From assembly GCA_016219005.1 (NCBI GenBank), contig JACRCN010000003.1, forward strand, positions 1 to 64,000: a stretch of 64,000 nt of DNA. Reading direction: 5' to 3'. Made by a program: the position numbers and the translations under genes. The stretch's first letter is position 1, and the number at the start of each line of letters is the position of its first letter. The notes below the pieces were generated by a model. The model was not told the origin of the DNA. It worked only from the letters and a program-made list of their open reading frames with translations, and did not search any database. Shown piece by piece: positions 1 through 26,409 of the stretch. Source of the DNA: Deltaproteobacteria bacterium (GTDB taxonomy: Bacteria > Desulfobacterota > Desulfobacteria > Desulfobacterales > SpSt-501).

Positions 1-301
1 CGGCTTCCTGCTCGTCCACCCAGGGCAGGAAGTCCTGCGCGGCCAGATCCGGGAAGGTGAGAAGCAGGTTGGGCAGATCGCCCTTGGGGTCGATGGCGAT
101 CACCGGGATGTTGTCGAGCAGCGCCTCCTCCAGCAGGCCGAGCGCCAGGCCGGTCTTGCCGCTGCCGGTCATGCCGATGATCACGGCATGGGTGGTCAGG
201 TCCTTGGAGTCATACAGGATGAGTTCCTCTCCGAGCTTTCCGGACTTCACGTCGAATGCCTTGCCCAGGTAAAAAACGCCGAGCTTTTCGTAGTCCGTCA
301 T
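1..301 (-). CDS. HerA-type (DUF87/DUF853) ATPase, N-terminal part only
   Basis: The gene starts at ATG 301 and runs off the left edge, leaving about 100 N-terminal residues. A Walker A motif GMTGSGKTG lies near residues 43-51, followed by [16 protein letters not shown]. Known family: HerA/VirB4-like hexameric ATPases, where this IDPKGD strand is typical of the DUF853 group and of large bacterial proteins annotated as ATP-binding DUF87 domains. The start is supported by a Shine-Dalgarno sequence AAAGGAGG 7 nt upstream and by a sigma70-like promoter at 353-381. Substrate and partner cannot be judged from the fragment. Confidence 0.8.
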
Positions 302-1398: not shown

Positions 1399-2148
1399 TC
1401 AGTCGCGCATCCACGGGGGCTCGCGCTCCTTCAGGTCCGAGAGGATCGCTGCGATGCGCTCTTGGGCTTCGGCTGCATCCGCCGGGATCACTGCCTCCAT
1501 GCGCTCGATCACCTCCCTCAGGAACGTGGCCCCACGCTGCGGCAGGTTGTTGAAGACGCGCAGTTGGATTTCGGGGCTGAAGCCCTTGAAGACCTTGGCG
1601 AGGTCCATGGTGCCGACCTCCCGCAGACAGTGCTGAATTTCCTCATCGTTGAGTCGGCCCATGGTGGCGTTGAGCCCATCCGTCGGGTCCGGGGAAAGGT
1701 TGGCGCGTTCGAGGCCCCGGAGGAAGGATTCCATGTCGCCCGGGGAGGAGTCGGTGAATTGCGCCGCGTAAAGCTGCGCGCCCTCCTCGCCGAAAAATGA
1801 GAGCAGCAGTTCCGTCAGGCGCTTCGGGCTGAGGCCGTTCTGGATGCCCATCAGTCCCTCCAGGATGACACAGCGCTCCAGGAGGTCCTTGCCGCGGTAG
1901 CCCCCCGCGAGGATATAGAGTTCCAGGACCTCGCGCACGGCCTGGGGCTTCTCGCCGTCGACGATCAGCTGCAGCCCCTTCTTGAGGAAATAGTTCGGAC
2001 ACTGGTCCATGTAATCCACCAACGACATCAGCCCGAAGTCTCTGGCCTTATTGGCGAGGGTGATCACCTCGCCCACCAGCCCCAGGCACTGTCGCTTGTC
2101 CTCGCTGCTGCACCTGATTTTGCGGGAGAATATCCAGCCGTAGTCCAT
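1399..2148 (-). CDS. Soluble MotA-loop / FliG-C-like fusion protein
   Basis: This 249-residue protein has no membrane segment. Residues 25-100 resemble the cytoplasmic domain of MotA, including the hallmark FLKKGLQLIVDG (54-65). Residues about 165-240 resemble the C-terminal torque domain of FliG (LNDEEIQHCLREVGTMDLA, then VFKGFSPE and NLPQRGA). By eye, the E. coli FliG torque residues K264 and R281 align with K188 and R205; D288 becomes E212, D289 becomes V213 and R297 is lost. In real motors these two surfaces sit on different proteins and touch each other. Here they are on one chain without the MotA transmembrane helices. No flagellar genes are nearby. Function is unknown; a regulator or decoy of motor assembly, or a non-flagellar scaffold, would both fit. 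Confidence 0.65.
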   Translation of the reverse strand: MDYGWIFSRKIRCSSEDKRQCLGLVGEVITLANKARDFGLMSLVDYMDQCPNYFLKKGLQLIVDGEKPQAVREVLELYILAGGYRGKDLLERCVILEGLMGIQNGLSPKRLTELLLSFFGEEGAQLYAAQFTDSSPGDMESFLRGLERANLSPDPTDGLNATMGRLNDEEIQHCLREVGTMDLAKVFKGFSPEIQLRVFNNLPQRGATFLREVIERMEAVIPADAAEAQERIAAILSDLKEREPPWMRD

Positions 2149-2291
2149 CCTGATCTTCCTAGGCCTGCGGCCTGTTTCGGCACACGTGGCCGTGCGGCCT
2201 GCACGGTGTCCTGAGCACTGTGTCTCGTGGAGGCTTTACGGGGCCATTCCAGGATTAAACTATCGGCAGTTTCCGTGAAAACTTGAGGACA

Positions 2292-19569: not shown

Positions 19570-20058
19570 ATGGCACAAATCACGCCCAAGAAAAACCAGT
19601 ACGCCCTACGGGCGGTATTCGAGCTCGCCAAACACCAGGGGCGGGGTCCCACTAAGATTTCCCATATCGCTGATGCCCAGGCCATTCCGGCCCGGTTCCT
19701 GGAGGTCATCCTGAACAAGCTCAAGCACAGCGGCCTGATCGCCTCCAAGCGGGGCTTTACAGGCGGTTATTTTCTGACCCGTTCCCCGGATGAGATCACG
19801 GTGGGTGACATCATGAACTTCATGCAGGGGCCCACCCGAACGGTGGACTGCGCCGCCTGCCTGTCCAAGGTCAACTGCCCGTCAAGCCGCCGCGGCTGCG
19901 CATTCTCGTCGATGTGGAACCGGGTCAGCCGCGCCATTTTGAAGGTCTACGACGAAACCACGATCCAGGACCTGCTGGACAACGACCGCCGTCTCCAGGA
20001 CAAACGGCGGCAGTCTCCCACGCGAGCCTCCCAGACGAAACAAGGACAGTGCTTATGA
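19570..20058 (+). CDS. rrf2: Rrf2-family Fe-S transcriptional regulator
   Basis: 162 residues. An N-terminal winged helix (YALRAVFELAKHQG..., helix KISHIADAQAIPARFLEVIL, wing GLIASKRGFTGGYFL) and cysteines C94, C97, C103 and C110 fit an Fe-S-sensing Rrf2/IscR protein. In Desulfovibrio vulgaris, Rrf2 represses the hmc operon; there it is the last gene, here it is first and its TGA overlaps the hmcA ATG. The start is set by AGAAGG before ATG 19570; the TTG further up lies in the promoter. Likely autoregulates through the dyad at its own -10. Confidence 0.88.
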   Translation: MAQITPKKNQYALRAVFELAKHQGRGPTKISHIADAQAIPARFLEVILNKLKHSGLIASKRGFTGGYFLTRSPDEITVGDIMNFMQGPTRTVDCAACLSKVNCPSSRRGCAFSSMWNRVSRAILKVYDETTIQDLLDNDRRLQDKRRQSPTRASQTKQGQCL

Positions 20059-21632
20059 CACAGGAACGATCTCTGGCTCTCCGGGCCATAGCCTGCTTGA
20101 CGGTCGCCGCCGCACTGGTGCTTGCGGCCGTCATCGGCTGCCACACTCCGACCGGCACCCCCGAGGATGCGAACAAGCCACGGGCCGACGTCGTCCGCAT
20201 CGACGGCCTCAAGCAGTTCGGCAGCCTGGAAAGACCCGCGGTGGTCTATCTGCACGAGAAGCACACTCAGGCCCTGGCCAAGAAAGGCAAGGACTGCGCC
20301 ACCTGCCATCTGCCCGACCAAAAATACATGTCCACCAAATTCATGCGCCTGAAGGACGCCTCCAAGCAGCAGTCGATGGACATCTACCACAACAACTGCA
20401 CGGCCTGCCACCGCCAGACGGCCGCCGCCGGCGAGAAAGCCGGCCCCGTGGCGTGCAACGAGTGCCACGTCGACAAGACGATCCCGTCCTCCTGGACGGC
20501 GATCGACATGGACAAGTCCCTGCATTACCGCCACGTGAAGGCCCAGGAGAACAAATGCGAGGTCTGCCATCACCAGGCCGACCCGGCCACCAAGAAACTC
20601 GTCTACGTCAAGGGCAAGGAGGATGACTGCCGCTACTGCCATCTCGACCGGACGGTCGATAACGTCATCTCCATGCGCCTGGCCTCCCACGAACAGTGCA
20701 TCGATTGCCACCGCAAGCGGCTCGCCCAGAATCAGGACGCCGGTCCGGCCTTTTGCGGCGGTTGCCACGATGCCGGACTGCAGGCGAAGATCCAGAAGCT
20801 GAAGGATGTCCCCCGGCTGATGCGGGGCCAGCCGGATGTCGCCATCGTCCAGGCGGTCAAAAGCGACGGGCAGAAAGTGGAACCGTTTACCCGTTTGAGC
20901 GTGGTGCCCTTCAACCATATCGGCCACGAAACCTATAACAGCACCTGCCGGGCCTGCCACCACGCATCGATGGAGGCTTGCGGCAAGTGCCACACGCTGC
21001 AGGGGTCCAAGGACGGCAAGTTCGTCAACCTGCAGACCGCCATGCACCACGGGAGCGCCAAGGCCAGCTGCCTGGGCTGTCATGACGGATTCCAGGCCGA
21101 GAAGCGCTGTGCCGGCTGCCATGCCTCGATGGCGCGCAAGGACCCGCCGGAGCTTGCCGGCTGCGTCAGCTGTCACATGCCCAAGCCCGTAGCGGCTACC
21201 CCACAGACCGAGCCCAAGGTCATGGCGGCCATGCTGCTGGAGGCCCGCAAGCCGGTCACGGCCACCTATGCCGACGAGGACATTCCGGAGACGGTGGAAA
21301 TCAAGTCCTTGAGCAAGCAGTACCAACTCGTAAAGCTGCCGCACCGCAAGATCGTCCAGGCTCTGGCGAAGAACCTAAAGGATAACAAACTCGCCGGCGC
21401 CTTCCACCGGGATCCCGGGACCATTTGCCAGGGCTGCCATCACAACAGCCCGATCGCCAAGAAACCACCGGCCTGCGCGAGCTGTCACGGCCAGCCCTTC
21501 GACGGCCGCAACCTCTTCAAGCCGGGGCTCCAGGCGGCCTATCACCTGCAGTGCATGGAGTGCCACAAGGACATGGGGATCGAGAAGCCGGTCGCGACCA
21601 ACTGCACCGGTTGCCATCAAGAAAAGCTCTAA
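20055..21632 (+). CDS. hmcA: High-molecular-weight 16-haem cytochrome c HmcA
   Basis: 525 residues. I count sixteen CxxCH haem motifs, the number in Desulfovibrio HmcA; many upstream histidines provide bis-His ligation. The N-terminus is a signal peptide with a lipobox-like AAVIGC (C29), so this copy may be a membrane-tethered lipoprotein, unlike the soluble Desulfovibrio form. It takes electrons in the periplasm (from type I cytochrome c3/hydrogenases) and passes them to the membrane HmcBCDEF complex. Start ATG 20055 is coupled to rrf2 as ATGA; the longer upstream frame is only overlap with rrf2. Confidence 0.93.
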   Translation: MTQERSLALRAIACLTVAAALVLAAVIGCHTPTGTPEDANKPRADVVRIDGLKQFGSLERPAVVYLHEKHTQALAKKGKDCATCHLPDQKYMSTKFMRLKDASKQQSMDIYHNNCTACHRQTAAAGEKAGPVACNECHVDKTIPSSWTAIDMDKSLHYRHVKAQENKCEVCHHQADPATKKLVYVKGKEDDCRYCHLDRTVDNVISMRLASHEQCIDCHRKRLAQNQDAGPAFCGGCHDAGLQAKIQKLKDVPRLMRGQPDVAIVQAVKSDGQKVEPFTRLSVVPFNHIGHETYNSTCRACHHASMEACGKCHTLQGSKDGKFVNLQTAMHHGSAKASCLGCHDGFQAEKRCAGCHASMARKDPPELAGCVSCHMPKPVAATPQTEPKVMAAMLLEARKPVTATYADEDIPETVEIKSLSKQYQLVKLPHRKIVQALAKNLKDNKLAGAFHRDPGTICQGCHHNSPIAKKPPACASCHGQPFDGRNLFKPGLQAAYHLQCMECHKDMGIEKPVATNCTGCHQEKL

Positions 21633-21668
21633 GAGGGAAACTTCATTCAACGTTCGAGGGGAACCGTC

Positions 21669-22760
21669 ATGTCAATCTCACGCAGAACGTTTCTCGGGTG
21701 GTTGGGCGCCGCGGGGGCCGGCACGAGCCTAGGCCGGTCGGCGCATGCCGCCGGAACGGCGAACTTCACCGGGTATCCGGACTCCCTGGGGGTACTGTTC
21801 GACGCCACCCGCTGCATCGGCTGCCGCAAGTGCGAGGAGGCCTGCAACAGGGTCAATGAGCTGCCCGCGCCCGCCAAACCCTTCAGCGACCTTGCCGTGC
21901 TGGATCGCAAACGCCGGACCGACGCCAAGACCTACATGGTGATCAACCGCTATGACAACATCCCGGGTGCGAAGGGCCCGGTGTACCGCAAAATTCAGTG
22001 CAACCATTGCCTGGAGCCGGCCTGCGCCTCGGCCTGTTTCGTGCGCGCCTTCGCCAAAAACAGCAACGGCGCCGTGACGTATGACGAATCGGTGTGCGTG
22101 GGCTGCCGCTACTGTATGATCGCCTGCCCCTTTGAAATACCGACCTACGAGTACGACAGGGCGTTCACGCCGCGCATTATGAAGTGCACCTTCTGCCAGC
22201 CCCGGCTCCTCAAGGGTCAGCTGCCGGGCTGTGTCGAGATCTGTCCGGCCGAGGCCCTGACCTTCGGCAGACGGCGCCACCTGCTCAAGATCGCCCGCGA
22301 GCGCATCGGCTTGTTCCCGGCGCGCTACATCGATCACATCTACGGCGAAACGGAGATGGGCGGGACCACCTGGTTGACCATCTCCGGGGTGCCGTTCCGG
22401 GAACTCGGCATGCGCGAGGACCTGGGCACCACATCGGCCCCCGAGCTCACCAAGGGTGCCCTGAGTGTCGTCCCCATCGTGGCGGGCTTGTGGCCCGTGC
22501 TGCTGACCGGGATCTACGCCATCTCCCAGCGCAAGGACCGGATCGCCCGGGAGGAAAAGGCGGCCGCCGTCGACGAGGCCGTAACCCGGGCCCGGGCCGA
22601 AGCCAAGGCCAAGCTCGCCGAAGCCCTGGCCAAGGCCGACAAGGATAAGAAGGCAGCCATCGACAAGGAAGTCAAGAAGGCCCTGGCCGATGCGGCCAAG
22701 GCCAAGGTTCAGGAGACCGCCGCCGCGTCCGCGGCCGCCCCCGAGAAGAAGTCCAGCTGA
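21669..22760 (+). CDS. hmcB: Periplasmic-facing four-cluster ferredoxin subunit HmcB
   Basis: 363 residues. A Tat signal ([10 protein letters not shown], residues 4-13) is followed by sixteen cysteines for four [4Fe-4S] clusters: C49-C59, C111-C123, C143-C153 and C173/C176/C188/C192. One membrane helix lies near 265-284. After it comes a 70-residue Ala/Lys/Glu coiled tail (about 290-363) on the cytoplasmic side that I do not know from standard HmcB. It relays electrons between HmcA and HmcC. It follows hmcA after 36 nt and precedes hmcC by 12 nt. Confidence 0.9.
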
Positions 22761-22772
22761 GGAGAGAGTCAG

Positions 22773-23942
22773 ATGCCCGAGCGCAAATTCGCAATCCAAA
22801 AGCCCGCGTTGACCCCCTTCAATGTGGTGGCCGGCATCATCGTGGTGATCGGCGTGGCCATAACGGGGATCCGGTTCACCCAGGGGCTGGCGGCCACCAC
22901 CAACCTTTCCGACTATAACCCGTGGGGGATCTGGATCGGCTTCGACCTCCTGGTCGGCGTCGCGCTGGCGGCCGGCGGGTATGTCACCTCCGCGGCCTGT
23001 TACCTCTTCGGCCTGAAGCGGTTCCACTCCGCGGTGCGGCCGGCGATCCTGACGGGATTCCTGGGGTATGCGCTGGTCGTGCTCGCCCTGCACTACGACG
23101 TCGGCCGCCCCTGGCGACTGCCGTACCCCTTCATCGTCCAGTCGGGCACGACCTCGCTGCTTTTCGAAGTGGCGGCCTGCGTCGCCCTGTACCTGACCGT
23201 GCTCTTCATCGAGTTTACCCCGGCGGCGCTGGAGTGGCTGGGGCTCAAGCGGGCCCGCCGCATCGTGAACAAACTGACGCTGGTGCTGACCATTTTCGGG
23301 GTGGTCCTCTCCACCCTGCACCAGTCTTCACTCGGAGCGCTTTTTCTGATCGCGCCGTCCAAACTGCACCCGCTCTGGTATTCGCCCTACCTGGCGCTTT
23401 ACTTTTTCGTCTCCAGCATCGTCGCCGGGCTGTCCATGGTGATCTTCGAGAGCACACTCTCCCATCGCTACTTTCACGACAAGATGGACACGGAACATCT
23501 CCAGGAGGCGGACGGGGTTGCGCTCGGGTTCGGCAAGGCGGCTGCCTTTGTCCTGGCCGGCTATTTTGTCATGAAGGTGATCGGGCTGGCCCAGACCAAT
23601 GCCTGGAGCTATCTTTCCACCGGGTACGGCCTGTGGTTCCTGGTGGAGCTGCTGGGCTTCGTGCTGCTGCCGTGCTACGCATACGCCATCGGCGTGCGGG
23701 AGAAGAACCTGAAGGTCATCCGCTGGACCGCGGCCTGGACGGTGCTCGGGATCGTTGTCAACCGCTTCAACGTCGGCTTGATCGCCTTCAACTGGCATCT
23801 GCCCTCGAGCGAGCGGTATTTCCCGCACTGGATGGAAATCGGGATTTCGGTGTTCGTCGTGACCCTGGGCGTGCTGGCCTACCGCTTCATCGTGACCCAC
23901 ATGCCGATCCTGTATGCCCACCCGGATTACGACAAGCATTGA
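22773..23942 (+). CDS. hmcC: NrfD-like integral membrane subunit HmcC
   Basis: 389 residues, about ten TM helices, of the NrfD/PsrC quinone-interacting family. Typical parts include FTQGLAATTNLSDYNPWGIW (residues about 30-49), YVTSAACYLFGLKRF, LHYDVGRPWRLPYPF and LHQSSLGALFLIAPSKLHPL. With HmcB it forms the membrane electron and possibly proton-translocating core. It is preceded by GGAGAGAGTC and lies 12 nt from hmcB. Confidence 0.92.
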   Translation: MPERKFAIQKPALTPFNVVAGIIVVIGVAITGIRFTQGLAATTNLSDYNPWGIWIGFDLLVGVALAAGGYVTSAACYLFGLKRFHSAVRPAILTGFLGYALVVLALHYDVGRPWRLPYPFIVQSGTTSLLFEVAACVALYLTVLFIEFTPAALEWLGLKRARRIVNKLTLVLTIFGVVLSTLHQSSLGALFLIAPSKLHPLWYSPYLALYFFVSSIVAGLSMVIFESTLSHRYFHDKMDTEHLQEADGVALGFGKAAAFVLAGYFVMKVIGLAQTNAWSYLSTGYGLWFLVELLGFVLLPCYAYAIGVREKNLKVIRWTAAWTVLGIVVNRFNVGLIAFNWHLPSSERYFPHWMEIGISVFVVTLGVLAYRFIVTHMPILYAHPDYDKH

Positions 23943-23981
23943 CGGAGGCGTCAACCGGCAACCCACTGAAGGACAAGCCAC

Positions 23982-24155
23982 ATGACCCACACCATCAACA
24001 CCCTGCATGATTTCATGGTTCGCACCGAAGGCATCACGTACATCCTGATCGTCGTGGCGCTCGTCGGCTTCGTGGTCTTCTGGCGGTTTCTGACCGAGCG
24101 GGACGAGGACGGAGAGCGGCTTGGCGCCGATCGTCCCGATGAAAACCCGCATTGA
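23982..24155 (+). CDS. hmcD: Small membrane subunit HmcD
   Basis: 57 residues (MTHTINTLHDFMV..., one TM helix about 18-35, YILIVVALVGFVVFWRFL, and an acidic/Arg-rich tail DEDGERLGADRP). The size and position between hmcC and hmcE match HmcD of Desulfovibrio, a 5-6 kDa membrane protein. It is easy to miss because of its length. Confidence 0.8.
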   Translation: MTHTINTLHDFMVRTEGITYILIVVALVGFVVFWRFLTERDEDGERLGADRPDENPH

Positions 24156-24171
24156 AGGACCGGGCATGGAA

Positions 24172-24202
24172 AAAAGCACTTTTCGTAGTCAAAAGTGATT
24201 TT
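24172..24202 (+). other. Intercistronic hairpin between hmcD and hmcE
   Basis: CACTTTT (24177-24183) pairs with AAAAGTG (24191-24197), flanked by an A-tract and TTTT. It could be a weak attenuator or an mRNA stabiliser inside the hmc operon. The 118-nt gap here is the longest within hmcABCDEF. Confidence 0.35.
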
Positions 24203-24273
24203 GGATCGCTGAGGAGCAACCACCAATCTTTGGCTTTGAGCCTTGAGCTTCGAATTCATCTTAGGAGTCGCCC

Positions 24274-24951
24274 ATGTACGAATTCGTGACCGGTCCGCTG
24301 GCGTGGCTGGCCTTCATCGTCTTTTTTGTCGGGATCGTCGTGAAGCTGGTCCTTTACATCCGGGGTCTCGACTGGAAGCTGGATCGCGTGACCTACTCGG
24401 TCAACACGTCTTACGGCGTGCGGGGGGCCCTGCGGTCCATCGGCTTCTGGCTGATGCCTTACGGCACCCAAAGCTACCGTAACAACCCGGGGTTCACGCT
24501 GGCGCTCTTCGTGATGCACATCGGGCTGATCCTGACCCCGATCTTCCTGCTCGGGCACAACATCCTGTTGGCGGAGCGCTGGGGCGTGAGCCTGCCGAGC
24601 CTGCCCGAGGGCGCAACCGACGTGCTGACCGTCTGCGTCATCGCCGCGGCCCTGGTGCTGCTGCTGCGGCGGATCGCGCTGCCCGAGGTCCGCATCATCA
24701 CCACGGCCTACGACGTCCTGCTGCTGGCGATCGCCGTTGCGCCCTTCGTCTCGGGGCTGCTCGCCCACTACGCCCACGACAACGGCCAGCTCTGGACGAT
24801 CGTGCACGTGCTGTGCGGCGAGGTCTTTCTGGTGGCCATCCCGCTCACCAAGCTGTCGCACTTCGTGCTGTTCTTCGCCACCCGGGCGCAGCTGGGGATG
24901 GACTACGGGATCAAACGTGGCGGGATGAAGAGCAAGGGGATCGCGTGGTGA
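24274..24951 (+). CDS. hmcE: Cytochrome b-like membrane subunit HmcE
   Basis: 225 residues with about five TM helices, related to the NarI/DsrM gamma subunit fold. Histidines in TM segments (LFVMHIGLILTPIFLLGHN; LWTIVHVLCGEVFLV; KLSHFVLFF) are candidates for b-haem ligation. In the Hmc complex it links the periplasmic side to HmcF on the cytoplasmic side. GGAG precedes the ATG. Confidence 0.88.
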   Translation: MYEFVTGPLAWLAFIVFFVGIVVKLVLYIRGLDWKLDRVTYSVNTSYGVRGALRSIGFWLMPYGTQSYRNNPGFTLALFVMHIGLILTPIFLLGHNILLAERWGVSLPSLPEGATDVLTVCVIAAALVLLLRRIALPEVRIITTAYDVLLLAIAVAPFVSGLLAHYAHDNGQLWTIVHVLCGEVFLVAIPLTKLSHFVLFFATRAQLGMDYGIKRGGMKSKGIAW

Positions 24952-25026
24952 CGGCCGCAGGGCTTCGGGCCTGACGCCGTCCCGGGAGTTGGATGAAACC
25001 ACCGAACGATTCAGAGGAAAGAGACC

Positions 25027-26409
25027 ATGCCTGAAGGAGTTCTCTGCAATAAAAACAAGGTGAACACCCTGGAGCAGCTGCAGGCGCTTCTGGCCGACAA
25101 GAGCGGCAAGCAGTACTACCAGGAGATGAACAACCTCGACGTCGACTCCAAGGCCTTGTGGGACCTCGTTCAGAAGACCTGCAAGTCCAGGACCCGAACC
25201 TGGCTGGAGATCTGCACCCACTGCGGGCTGTGCGCCGAAAGCTGTTTCTACTACCTGTCCAACCACCGCGACCCCACGCAGGTGCCCTCCTACAAGATCC
25301 AGTCGACCCTGGGCGAGATCGTCCGGCGCAAGGGCAAGGTGGACAATGCCTTCATGCAGATGGCGATGGACACCGCCTTTTCCAAGTGCACCTGCTGCAC
25401 GCGCTGCGGCGTCTACTGCCCGATGGGAATCGACATGGGCGTTATGTTCAGCTACCTGCGCGGCCTGCTCTTCTCCCAGGGGTTCACGCCCTGGGAGATG
25501 AAGATCGGCACGGGCATGCACCGCATCTACCGGGCGCAGATGGACGTCACCACCGAGGATTGGGTGGAGACCTGCTCGTGGATGGCCGAGGAGAACGCCG
25601 ATGAGTGGCCAGGGCTCGAGATCCCCGTCGACAAGGAGAACGCCGACATCCTTTACACCGTCAACGCCCGCGAACCCAAGCACTACCCCGAGGACATCGC
25701 CCAGGCCGCGATCCTGTTCCACGTGGCCGGCGAGAACTGGACCGTGCCGAGCGAGGGCTGGGAAGAGACGAGTCTGGCCATGTTCGCGGGCGATTGGGAA
25801 GCCTGCAAGATGCAGGTGGAGGGCGTCTACGGCGCCATGGCCAAGCTCAAGCCCAAGCGCATGGTGGTGACCGAGTGCGGCCACGCCTACCGGGCCACCG
25901 TCATCGAGGGGCCGTACTGGGCGGGACGAACGAGCGGTAAGCCCCCGGTTGACAGCTTCCATTATGTCGAATGGGTGGCCGAGGCGTTGCGCAGCGGCAA
26001 ACTCAAGATCGACCCGGCTAAAAAGATCAAGGAACCCGTCACCTACCAGGACTCCTGTAACTACATCCGCAACGCCGGGTTGTGGGATTCCGCCCGCTAC
26101 ATCATGAGCCAGATCGCCGAAGACTTCCGCGAGATGACCCCTTCCCGCGAGCACAATTTCTGCTGCGGCGGCGGCGGCGGGCTGAACGGCATCGGCCGCT
26201 ACCGGGAGCAGCGCAACATCGGCCTGAAGGTGAAGCGCGACCAGATCCTGGCGACCGGGGCGAAATTGGTGGTCGCCCCCTGCCACAACTGCTGGGACGC
26301 CATCCGGGACCTGGAGGAAGTCTATGAAATTGGCATCCGCTGGAGCTTTTTAAAGCCGCTGCTGATCAATATGATTGAGGTGCCGGCGGGCATGCGGGGT
26401 GAGGAATGA
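25027..26409 (+). CDS. hmcF: Cytoplasmic Fe-S/CCG subunit HmcF
   Basis: 460 residues. Two [4Fe-4S] motifs lie at C63/C66/C69/C73 ([11 protein letters not shown]) and C121/C124/C127/C131 ([11 protein letters not shown]). CCG-domain cysteines follow near [32 protein letters not shown] and [10 protein letters not shown]. Such HdrD/DsrK-like subunits act at the cytoplasmic face, often with a thiol/disulfide or menaquinol partner. AGGAAAGAGA precedes ATG 25027. It is the last canonical hmc gene. Confidence 0.92.

Follow-up and report, generated by a model that had tools for sequence, protein, structure and literature searches.

A single membrane-free chain, encoded in the window (the whole 64,000-nucleotide stretch of Desulfobacterales DNA analysed here), joins the part of MotA that faces the rotor to the part of FliG that faces the stator, a conclusion that is well supported by profile searches, alignments and a family of full-length relatives. 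Judged from the sequences of these relatives, the chimera is a real conserved family and not a one-off.

Architecture of the chimera

An earlier note on this DNA had described a 249-residue chain carrying a MotA hallmark; the open reading frame was confirmed, and the hallmark FLKKGLQLIVDG occupies residues 54-65 of the chimera. The features of the gene are as follows.

1399..2148, minus strand: gene for the soluble chimera of the MotA cytoplasmic domain and the FliG torque head; ORF of 249 aa with an ATG start
1423..1656, minus strand: FliG C-terminal torque head only, residues 165-242 (Pfam 4.8e-14, TIGR00207, alignment)
1657..1758, minus strand: variable linker, residues 131-164, with helices predicted at low confidence
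1759..2091, minus strand: MotA/PomA-type cytoplasmic domain, residues 20-130 (phmmer, pLDDT, VIA-align)
2157..2160, minus strand: Shine-Dalgarno-like AGGA, 8 nt 5' of the chimera ATG (by eye)
2260..2286, minus strand: sigma-28 (FliA)-type promoter TCAAGTTT-N11-GCCGATAG, 111 bp upstream of the chimera ATG

In the N-terminal half, the NCBIfam models of MotP, MotA and PomA match approximately residues 18-81 with E-values down to 1.1e-12, the scores of these models, like that of the fliG model given below, being far under the full-length cut-offs. Among PDB sequences, MotA was matched at 1.4e-12 (6ysf, phmmer). The alignment to 6ysf falls into two pieces, chimera 22-80 on 6ysf 78-136 and chimera 87-128 on 6ysf 216-257, the latter weak by itself (0.43), and two separate matches indicate that the chimera fuses the loop preceding TM3 straight to the tail that follows TM4. 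The maximal 19-residue Kyte-Doolittle mean of the chimera is 0.85, compared with 2.04-2.64 in three real MotAs, so that a transmembrane helix is not expected, as the earlier note had held.

The predicted structure agrees with this assignment. In a model built from the chimera and eight relatives, the mean pLDDT per ten-residue block was 74-93 for residues 11-120 and 63 for residues 121-130; over the entire chain the model reached a pLDDT of 66.6 and a pTM of 0.52, with low confidence after residue 120. VIA-align superposed chimera 20..120 on PomA 8brd_D 72..243 with Z 16.8 (rmsd 1.1 A, 99 residues) and returned Z 10.4-16.3 for nine further stator structures (8ucs_C, Z 15.7). It is VIA-align, not Foldseek, that gives the strong structural score for this half: given the whole chimera model, Foldseek stayed above E 0.001 throughout (best 0.04, 8ucs_C), and the top-ranked chains for the two-domain model were MotA/PomA and FliG, with weak E-values. 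By sequence and by model, chimera residues ~20-130 are the MotA/PomA cytoplasmic domain minus its four transmembrane helices.

The C-terminal half is recognised as FliG by several profiles and alignments. Pfam FliG_C (PF01706) matches chimera 165-242 with a score that passes the gathering threshold and covers positions 26-103 of its 108; TIGR00207 (fliG) matches at 2e-9 over positions 246-323 of 338, with 37 of 226.7 bits; and chimera 165-241 aligns with the PDB sequence of FliG 1qc7 at 6.6e-11. With phmmer, chimera 166-236 was placed on residues 242-312 of Salmonella FliG (8umd_B), two segments of equal length, and this alignment equates chimera K188 with FliG K264 and chimera R205 with FliG R281, in agreement with what had been noticed from the letters. 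The presence of both halves on one chain, also claimed there, is borne out by the Pfam FliG_C and NCBIfam MotA-type matches. FliG_N, FliG_M and the MFxF motif are absent from the chimera according to Pfam, NCBIfam and the alignment.

The structural comparison of this half was less informative. FliG structures aligned to it with VIA-align Z 3.6-4.6, no better than the unrelated helical proteins listed. Modelled alone from one sequence, the half reached a mean pLDDT of 62.3 and found no clear fold match; FliG was not among the best 50 rows of this fold search, where MgtE cytosolic domains appeared with Z 5.7-7.3. A search of viral contigs for FliG relatives that would deepen the structure alignment found none. 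Because the model of the C-terminal half is poor, its FliG fold rests on sequence, and the proposed check by structure prediction succeeded for the MotA half (Z 16.8 to PomA) and not for the FliG half.

Three trivial or external origins were considered and rejected. A frame artefact or chance similarity was rejected on the two independent halves and the ten full-length copies described below. The idea that motA and fliG of the host fused recently was rejected on the type of the stator, the host stator being of the MotA1 type and the MotA half of the chimera scoring with MotP/MotA/PomA-type models. A phage or plasmid gene was rejected on searches of phages (no match at E <= 0.01), viral contigs (no relative) and plasmid records (one with a chimera match, covering 21% of the query).

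The chimera family

When 321 genomes were drawn from the order, full-length copies were found in eight genomes including that of the window, amounting to ten copies and one partial; the partial copy (L133, 121 aa) is excluded from all counts of ten. The full-length copies are 245-250 aa long, are 37-45% identical to the window protein and can be aligned over their whole length; 28 positions, distributed over the two halves, are invariant. All ten are matched by Pfam FliG_C at E <= 0.01, and all ten by the LIC10244, MotA-type and fliG models of NCBIfam. A class draw of 389 genomes gave seven carriers of the domain, all of which are carriers in the order draw too, and a phylum draw of 395 genomes contained the fusion in one, the genome of the window. 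The phylum draw had suggested a singleton, a reading that was withdrawn after the class and order draws revealed the family. Within the genus, one of seven genomes has the chimera and all six others have a FliG match, so the motor can do without the chimera. Two genomes hold two full-length copies each, belonging to different sequence groups (L127 and L131 in G549, L125 and L126 in G706), and from these double copies the family seems to have paralogues.

The closest named relative is the LIC10244 family (NF047717), hypothetical proteins of Leptospira whose profile has 252 positions, a length like that of the chimera. This profile matches all ten chimera copies (best 8.5e-27); the window protein reaches 75.1 bits, where the cut-off is 475, with chimera 10-220 lying on profile 9-225. 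The N-terminal half of the window protein alone scores 69.8 bits, with residues 10-122 on profile 9-122, which leaves no room for transmembrane helices, and its C-terminal half alone gives no match. Among the other C-terminal halves, those of L125 (4.5e-5), L124 (6.4e-5) and L127 (1.7e-4), three copies that are close to each other, and that of L132 (0.036) match the C-terminal part of the profile when used alone, and the remaining five do not. Three FliG and three MotA controls gave no match to the profile at E <= 10. Judged from the profile, LIC10244 probably, though not certainly, shares the two-part architecture. Table 1 of PMC8638967 lists LIC10244 only as a hypothetical cytoplasmic protein; the same paper reports it as 6.61-fold upregulated by PerRA/PerRB in leptospires in dialysis membrane chambers, and its main text contains no occurrence of MotA or FliG. 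The earlier statement that no protein of this kind was known thus needs amending, since the LIC10244 family exists, named solely for its PerRA/PerRB regulation, and it holds to the extent that we found no description of LIC10244 as a MotA/FliG chimera in the literature.

A second set of relatives consists of seven genes of 132-135 aa that encode a MotA domain without transmembrane helices and without a FliG half (L038-L044, e.g. L038:5965-6363; hereafter mini-MotA). They come from Desulfobacterota MAGs labelled Desulfocapsa, Desulfocapsaceae, Desulfobulbaceae, Desulfoarculaceae and one "Proteobacteria bacterium". Like the chimera, mini-MotA is free of transmembrane helices, and it aligns without gaps on the start of the chimera over its 132 residues; unlike the chimera, it keeps the equivalent of MotA E98 and has no FliG half. 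FliG was found in all seven mini-MotA genomes, and no sigma-28-type site lies within 400 bp of the seven genes (best, 5 mismatches). In the phylum draw, the whole MotA-like domain occurs in 3 of 395 genomes among the matches listed, namely that of the window and two mini-MotA carriers, and the other matches listed cover the MotA loop only, in frames of at least 222 aa. A PilZ gene stands convergent to mini-MotA within ~350 bp in L038 (PF07238, 1.6e-9) and, by eye, likewise in L040.

Charged residues at the stator-rotor contacts

Two salt-bridge pairs have been described between stator and rotor of Salmonella, of which MotA R90-FliG D289 matters more for stator placement and MotA E98-FliG R281 matters more for torque, as reported in PMC7564593. 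The chimeras retain one member of each pair. The positions of R90 and R281 are basic in 10/10 copies, R36 of the window protein corresponding to MotA R90, and the other two positions are never acidic: that of E98 holds V, V, V, V, V, V, I, A, G and G, and that of D289 holds V, T, T, V, T, A, T, T, A and A, although the ten copies are related and so do not represent ten independent events. Of the other charges, D288 is represented by an acid in all ten, K264 is kept in seven (missing in L130-L132) and R297 in three.

For comparison we used 34 MotA and 26 FliG rows, loci that match the window protein at BLAST E <= 1e-3 and are therefore selected by similarity, including two pairs of loci for the same gene (L034/L105 and L028/L094) and two FliG rows from mini-MotA genomes (L110 and L111). 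In these MotA rows the R90 position is R in 33/33 (one further row is gapped) and the E98 position is E in 33/34; in the FliG rows R281 is R, and the D289 position acidic, in 26/26. The host's MotA1-type MotA (L048) did not match the window protein and thus stands outside the MotA rows; by eye, its E98 position carries E and its R90 position Q.

Because each half lacks the acid of its published pair, neither pair can form within the chain. As far as the alignments tell, each half still has one charge to present to a component of the real motor that bears the matching acid. The loss of the acids may have been selected, either to stop self-pairing or to kill torque.

A sigma-28-type promoter and the flagellar setting

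The sequence TCAAGTTT-N11-GCCGATAG upstream of the chimera differs at two positions from what we take to be the sigma-28 consensus. It is the only match in the window with <=3 mismatches, and 11 of 100 whole-window shuffles have one somewhere. When 143-bp upstream gaps were simulated, a site with <=2 mismatches appeared in 1 of 20000, and a second base model gave 0 of 20000. The genome of the window holds 23 sites with <=2 mismatches vs 2 for the reversed pattern; at <=3 mismatches the contrast is weak (60 vs 42). Genes behind the 23 sites include flgM (PF04316, 3.3e-20), motA, two chemoreceptor genes and two HDOD genes, together with many others of no known flagellar link. The other nine copies have no sigma-28-type site within 350 bp upstream, the best candidate having 4 mismatches and a 10-bp spacer. 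One of their genomes, G618, has at least 14 such sites elsewhere in its sampled third, a lower bound because the scan used a prefilter on the second element. Since nine copies are without the site even though G618 has such sites elsewhere, sigma-28 control is not universal in the family.

Some of the sites in the window genome lie before genes of other kinds. One-mismatch sites precede type IV pilus-type genes at two loci (L056, G000:C89:18380; L052, G000:C16:48567; MshEN/T2SSE by Pfam, PilC-like by eye), hinting from sequence that flagella and pili share control in this genome. At a third locus (L054, G000:C54:503-679), two sites 150 bp apart stand before an HTH_17 gene, and one of them closely resembles the chimera promoter, spacer included.

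The genome of the window contains fliF-fliG-fliH-fliI in a row (fliG by NCBIfam, the rest by eye). Its single motA, which is of the E. coli MotA1 type, is followed by motB (the latter by eye). The earlier remark that no flagellar genes are nearby therefore stands for the window, where we saw none beside the chimera, and not for the genome; the gliding or ExbB-like setting suggested with it is at odds with the genome's own flagellar cluster and motA. In G618, a genome in a single contig, one sampled tile matches FlgE, FlgD, FliK and FliI of the window genome, and the next stretch matches FliF, FliG and FliH, with the FliG 58.9% identical to that of the window genome (names other than FliG were assigned by eye). 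Judged by their genes, both carriers examined, two of the eight, are flagellated, which answers for these two the question whether homologues sit in flagellated genomes.

The immediate neighbours of the chimera in the window encode a rubrerythrin-like protein (PF02915, 1.4e-11) and a 518-aa protein for which no Pfam match over the cut-off was found. None of the other nine copies was seen beside flagellar genes (by eye; three of the contigs are < 5 kb), and their neighbours include LptA-like, MurJ-like, leuS and glycosyltransferase genes (by eye). Several neighbours recur. A conserved gene of 362-365 aa lies directly upstream of the chimera in two loci (L131:7944-9035 and L132:462-1550), and a gene of the same family lies directly downstream in another (L130:8168-9265); a conserved gene of 147-198 aa with the motif MKQKY is found ~0.7-1.1 kb upstream in three loci (L126:10685-11128, L128:10151-10681 and L129:4601-5197); and in L126 and L129 the gene after the chimera is LptA-like, all by eye. 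Elsewhere in the window, 19914-26409 resembles, by eye, a DsrMKJOP-type cluster with multihaem cytochrome, ferredoxin-type, NrfD-type and HdrD-type proteins.

Discussion

From these observations, we consider it an even call that the chimera mimics stator and rotor in soluble form and acts on the flagellar motor as a torque-dead decoy, a brake or a clutch. In the organism of the window, it would be made alongside the late (sigma-28) flagellar genes and would then enter the gap between stator and rotor. There the MotA-like half, which keeps R36 and is without the torque acid, would meet Asp-289 of FliG, and the FliG-like half, which keeps R205 and is without the stator-placing acid, would meet E98 of the stator MotA, so that the chimera would occupy the rotor and/or the stator, transmitting no torque. 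As each salt bridge is short of one partner in the chain, the two halves are not expected to pair via them and would stay free for the motor.

Support for a decoy or brake comes from the recognition of both halves by sequence, and of the MotA half by predicted structure, as well as from the full-length family, the loss of the acids, the sigma-28-type promoter, the flagella of two carriers and the precedent of YcgR. It is weakened by the nine copies that have neither a sigma-28-type site nor flagellar neighbours, by the missing K264 in 3/10, by the poor model of the FliG half, by the mismatch in stator type between the host and the mimic, and by the six FliG-bearing members of the genus without the chimera. 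The proposal in the earlier note that such a protein titrates or regulates the motor is plausible in view of the promoter, the acid loss and the two flagellated carriers.

The likeness to the motor's own components is partial on both sides. The chimera shares with the MotA/PomA/MotP stator the cytoplasmic domain, by sequence and by predicted fold (Z 10.4-16.8 over ten structures), and a basic equivalent of R90, but it is without a transmembrane helix, a channel, an adjacent motB and an equivalent of E98. With FliG it shares a torque head bearing the equivalents of R281 and D288 in 10/10 and of K264 in 7/10, but it is without FliG_N, FliG_M, the MFxF motif and an equivalent of D289. As to mode of action, the nearest parallel is YcgR, which is soluble, binds MotA as well as FliG and slows the motor (PMC10140304; PMC12713396). 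By analogy with the brakes and clutches YcgR, MotI and EpsE, the chimera probably works alike, being soluble, meeting MotA and/or FliG and slowing or uncoupling the motor; it differs from them in having neither a PilZ domain (none in Pfam at E <= 1) nor a glycosyltransferase domain (Pfam search), and it would copy the motor's own faces. To our knowledge, the known motor brakes reach MotA and FliG via unrelated folds. The wider proposition, that the family represents a new class of motor regulator in Desulfobacterota and, via LIC10244, in Leptospira, which would use the motor's own mating faces with the acids removed by selection as a torque-dead decoy, we put at just short of an even chance.

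The same two binding surfaces and the sigma-28-type timing of the window gene would also suit a factor for assembly or quality control, whose MotA-like half would keep a place on FliG (or its FliG-like half on new MotA) until real stators displace it, letting stators engage only finished rotors, and loss of the torque acid would fit such a placeholder. We think this unlikely, as the chimera is absent from most of the genomes drawn, including the six FliG-bearing genus members, and the other copies were not seen in flagellar operons (by eye). We are equally doubtful that the family was co-opted for a role outside flagella, for instance in envelope or surface machinery, its folds serving merely as protein-binding helical domains. 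The non-flagellar appearance of the other copies' neighbours (by eye), the lack of the K264 equivalent in L130-L132, the nine copies without a sigma-28-type site and the response of LIC10244 to PerRA/PerRB in the host-like culture of PMC8638967 all point in that direction, but both flagellar faces are still recognisable as MotA and FliG in 10/10 copies, both carriers examined are flagellated and the window gene has its sigma-28-type promoter.

A signal-switched modulator, whose halves would alternate between packing on each other and binding the motor, would make use of having a stator face and a rotor face on the same chain, separated by a variable linker of ~34 residues. Both published salt-bridge pairs, however, are without one partner in cis in 10/10, and no ligand-binding domain was found in the chimera by Pfam at E <= 1, which makes this reading quite improbable. 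A chance fusion or a functionless, decaying remnant is scarcely credible: the chimera is indeed present in just 1/7 genus genomes, but full-length copies with 37-45% identity and 28 invariant positions occur in 8/321 genomes of the order, and the remnant reading is left for the window copy alone, whose frame is open and whose promoter is well formed.

Evolution has seemingly excised the two mating surfaces themselves and linked them within a single soluble protein. The consistent absence of E98 and D289 together with basic R90 and R281 would mean that nature has separated docking from torque, and it makes a pair of salt bridges that has long been studied testable in trans. For the LIC10244 family of Leptospira, so far only hypothetical proteins, the chimera provides a first functional lead.
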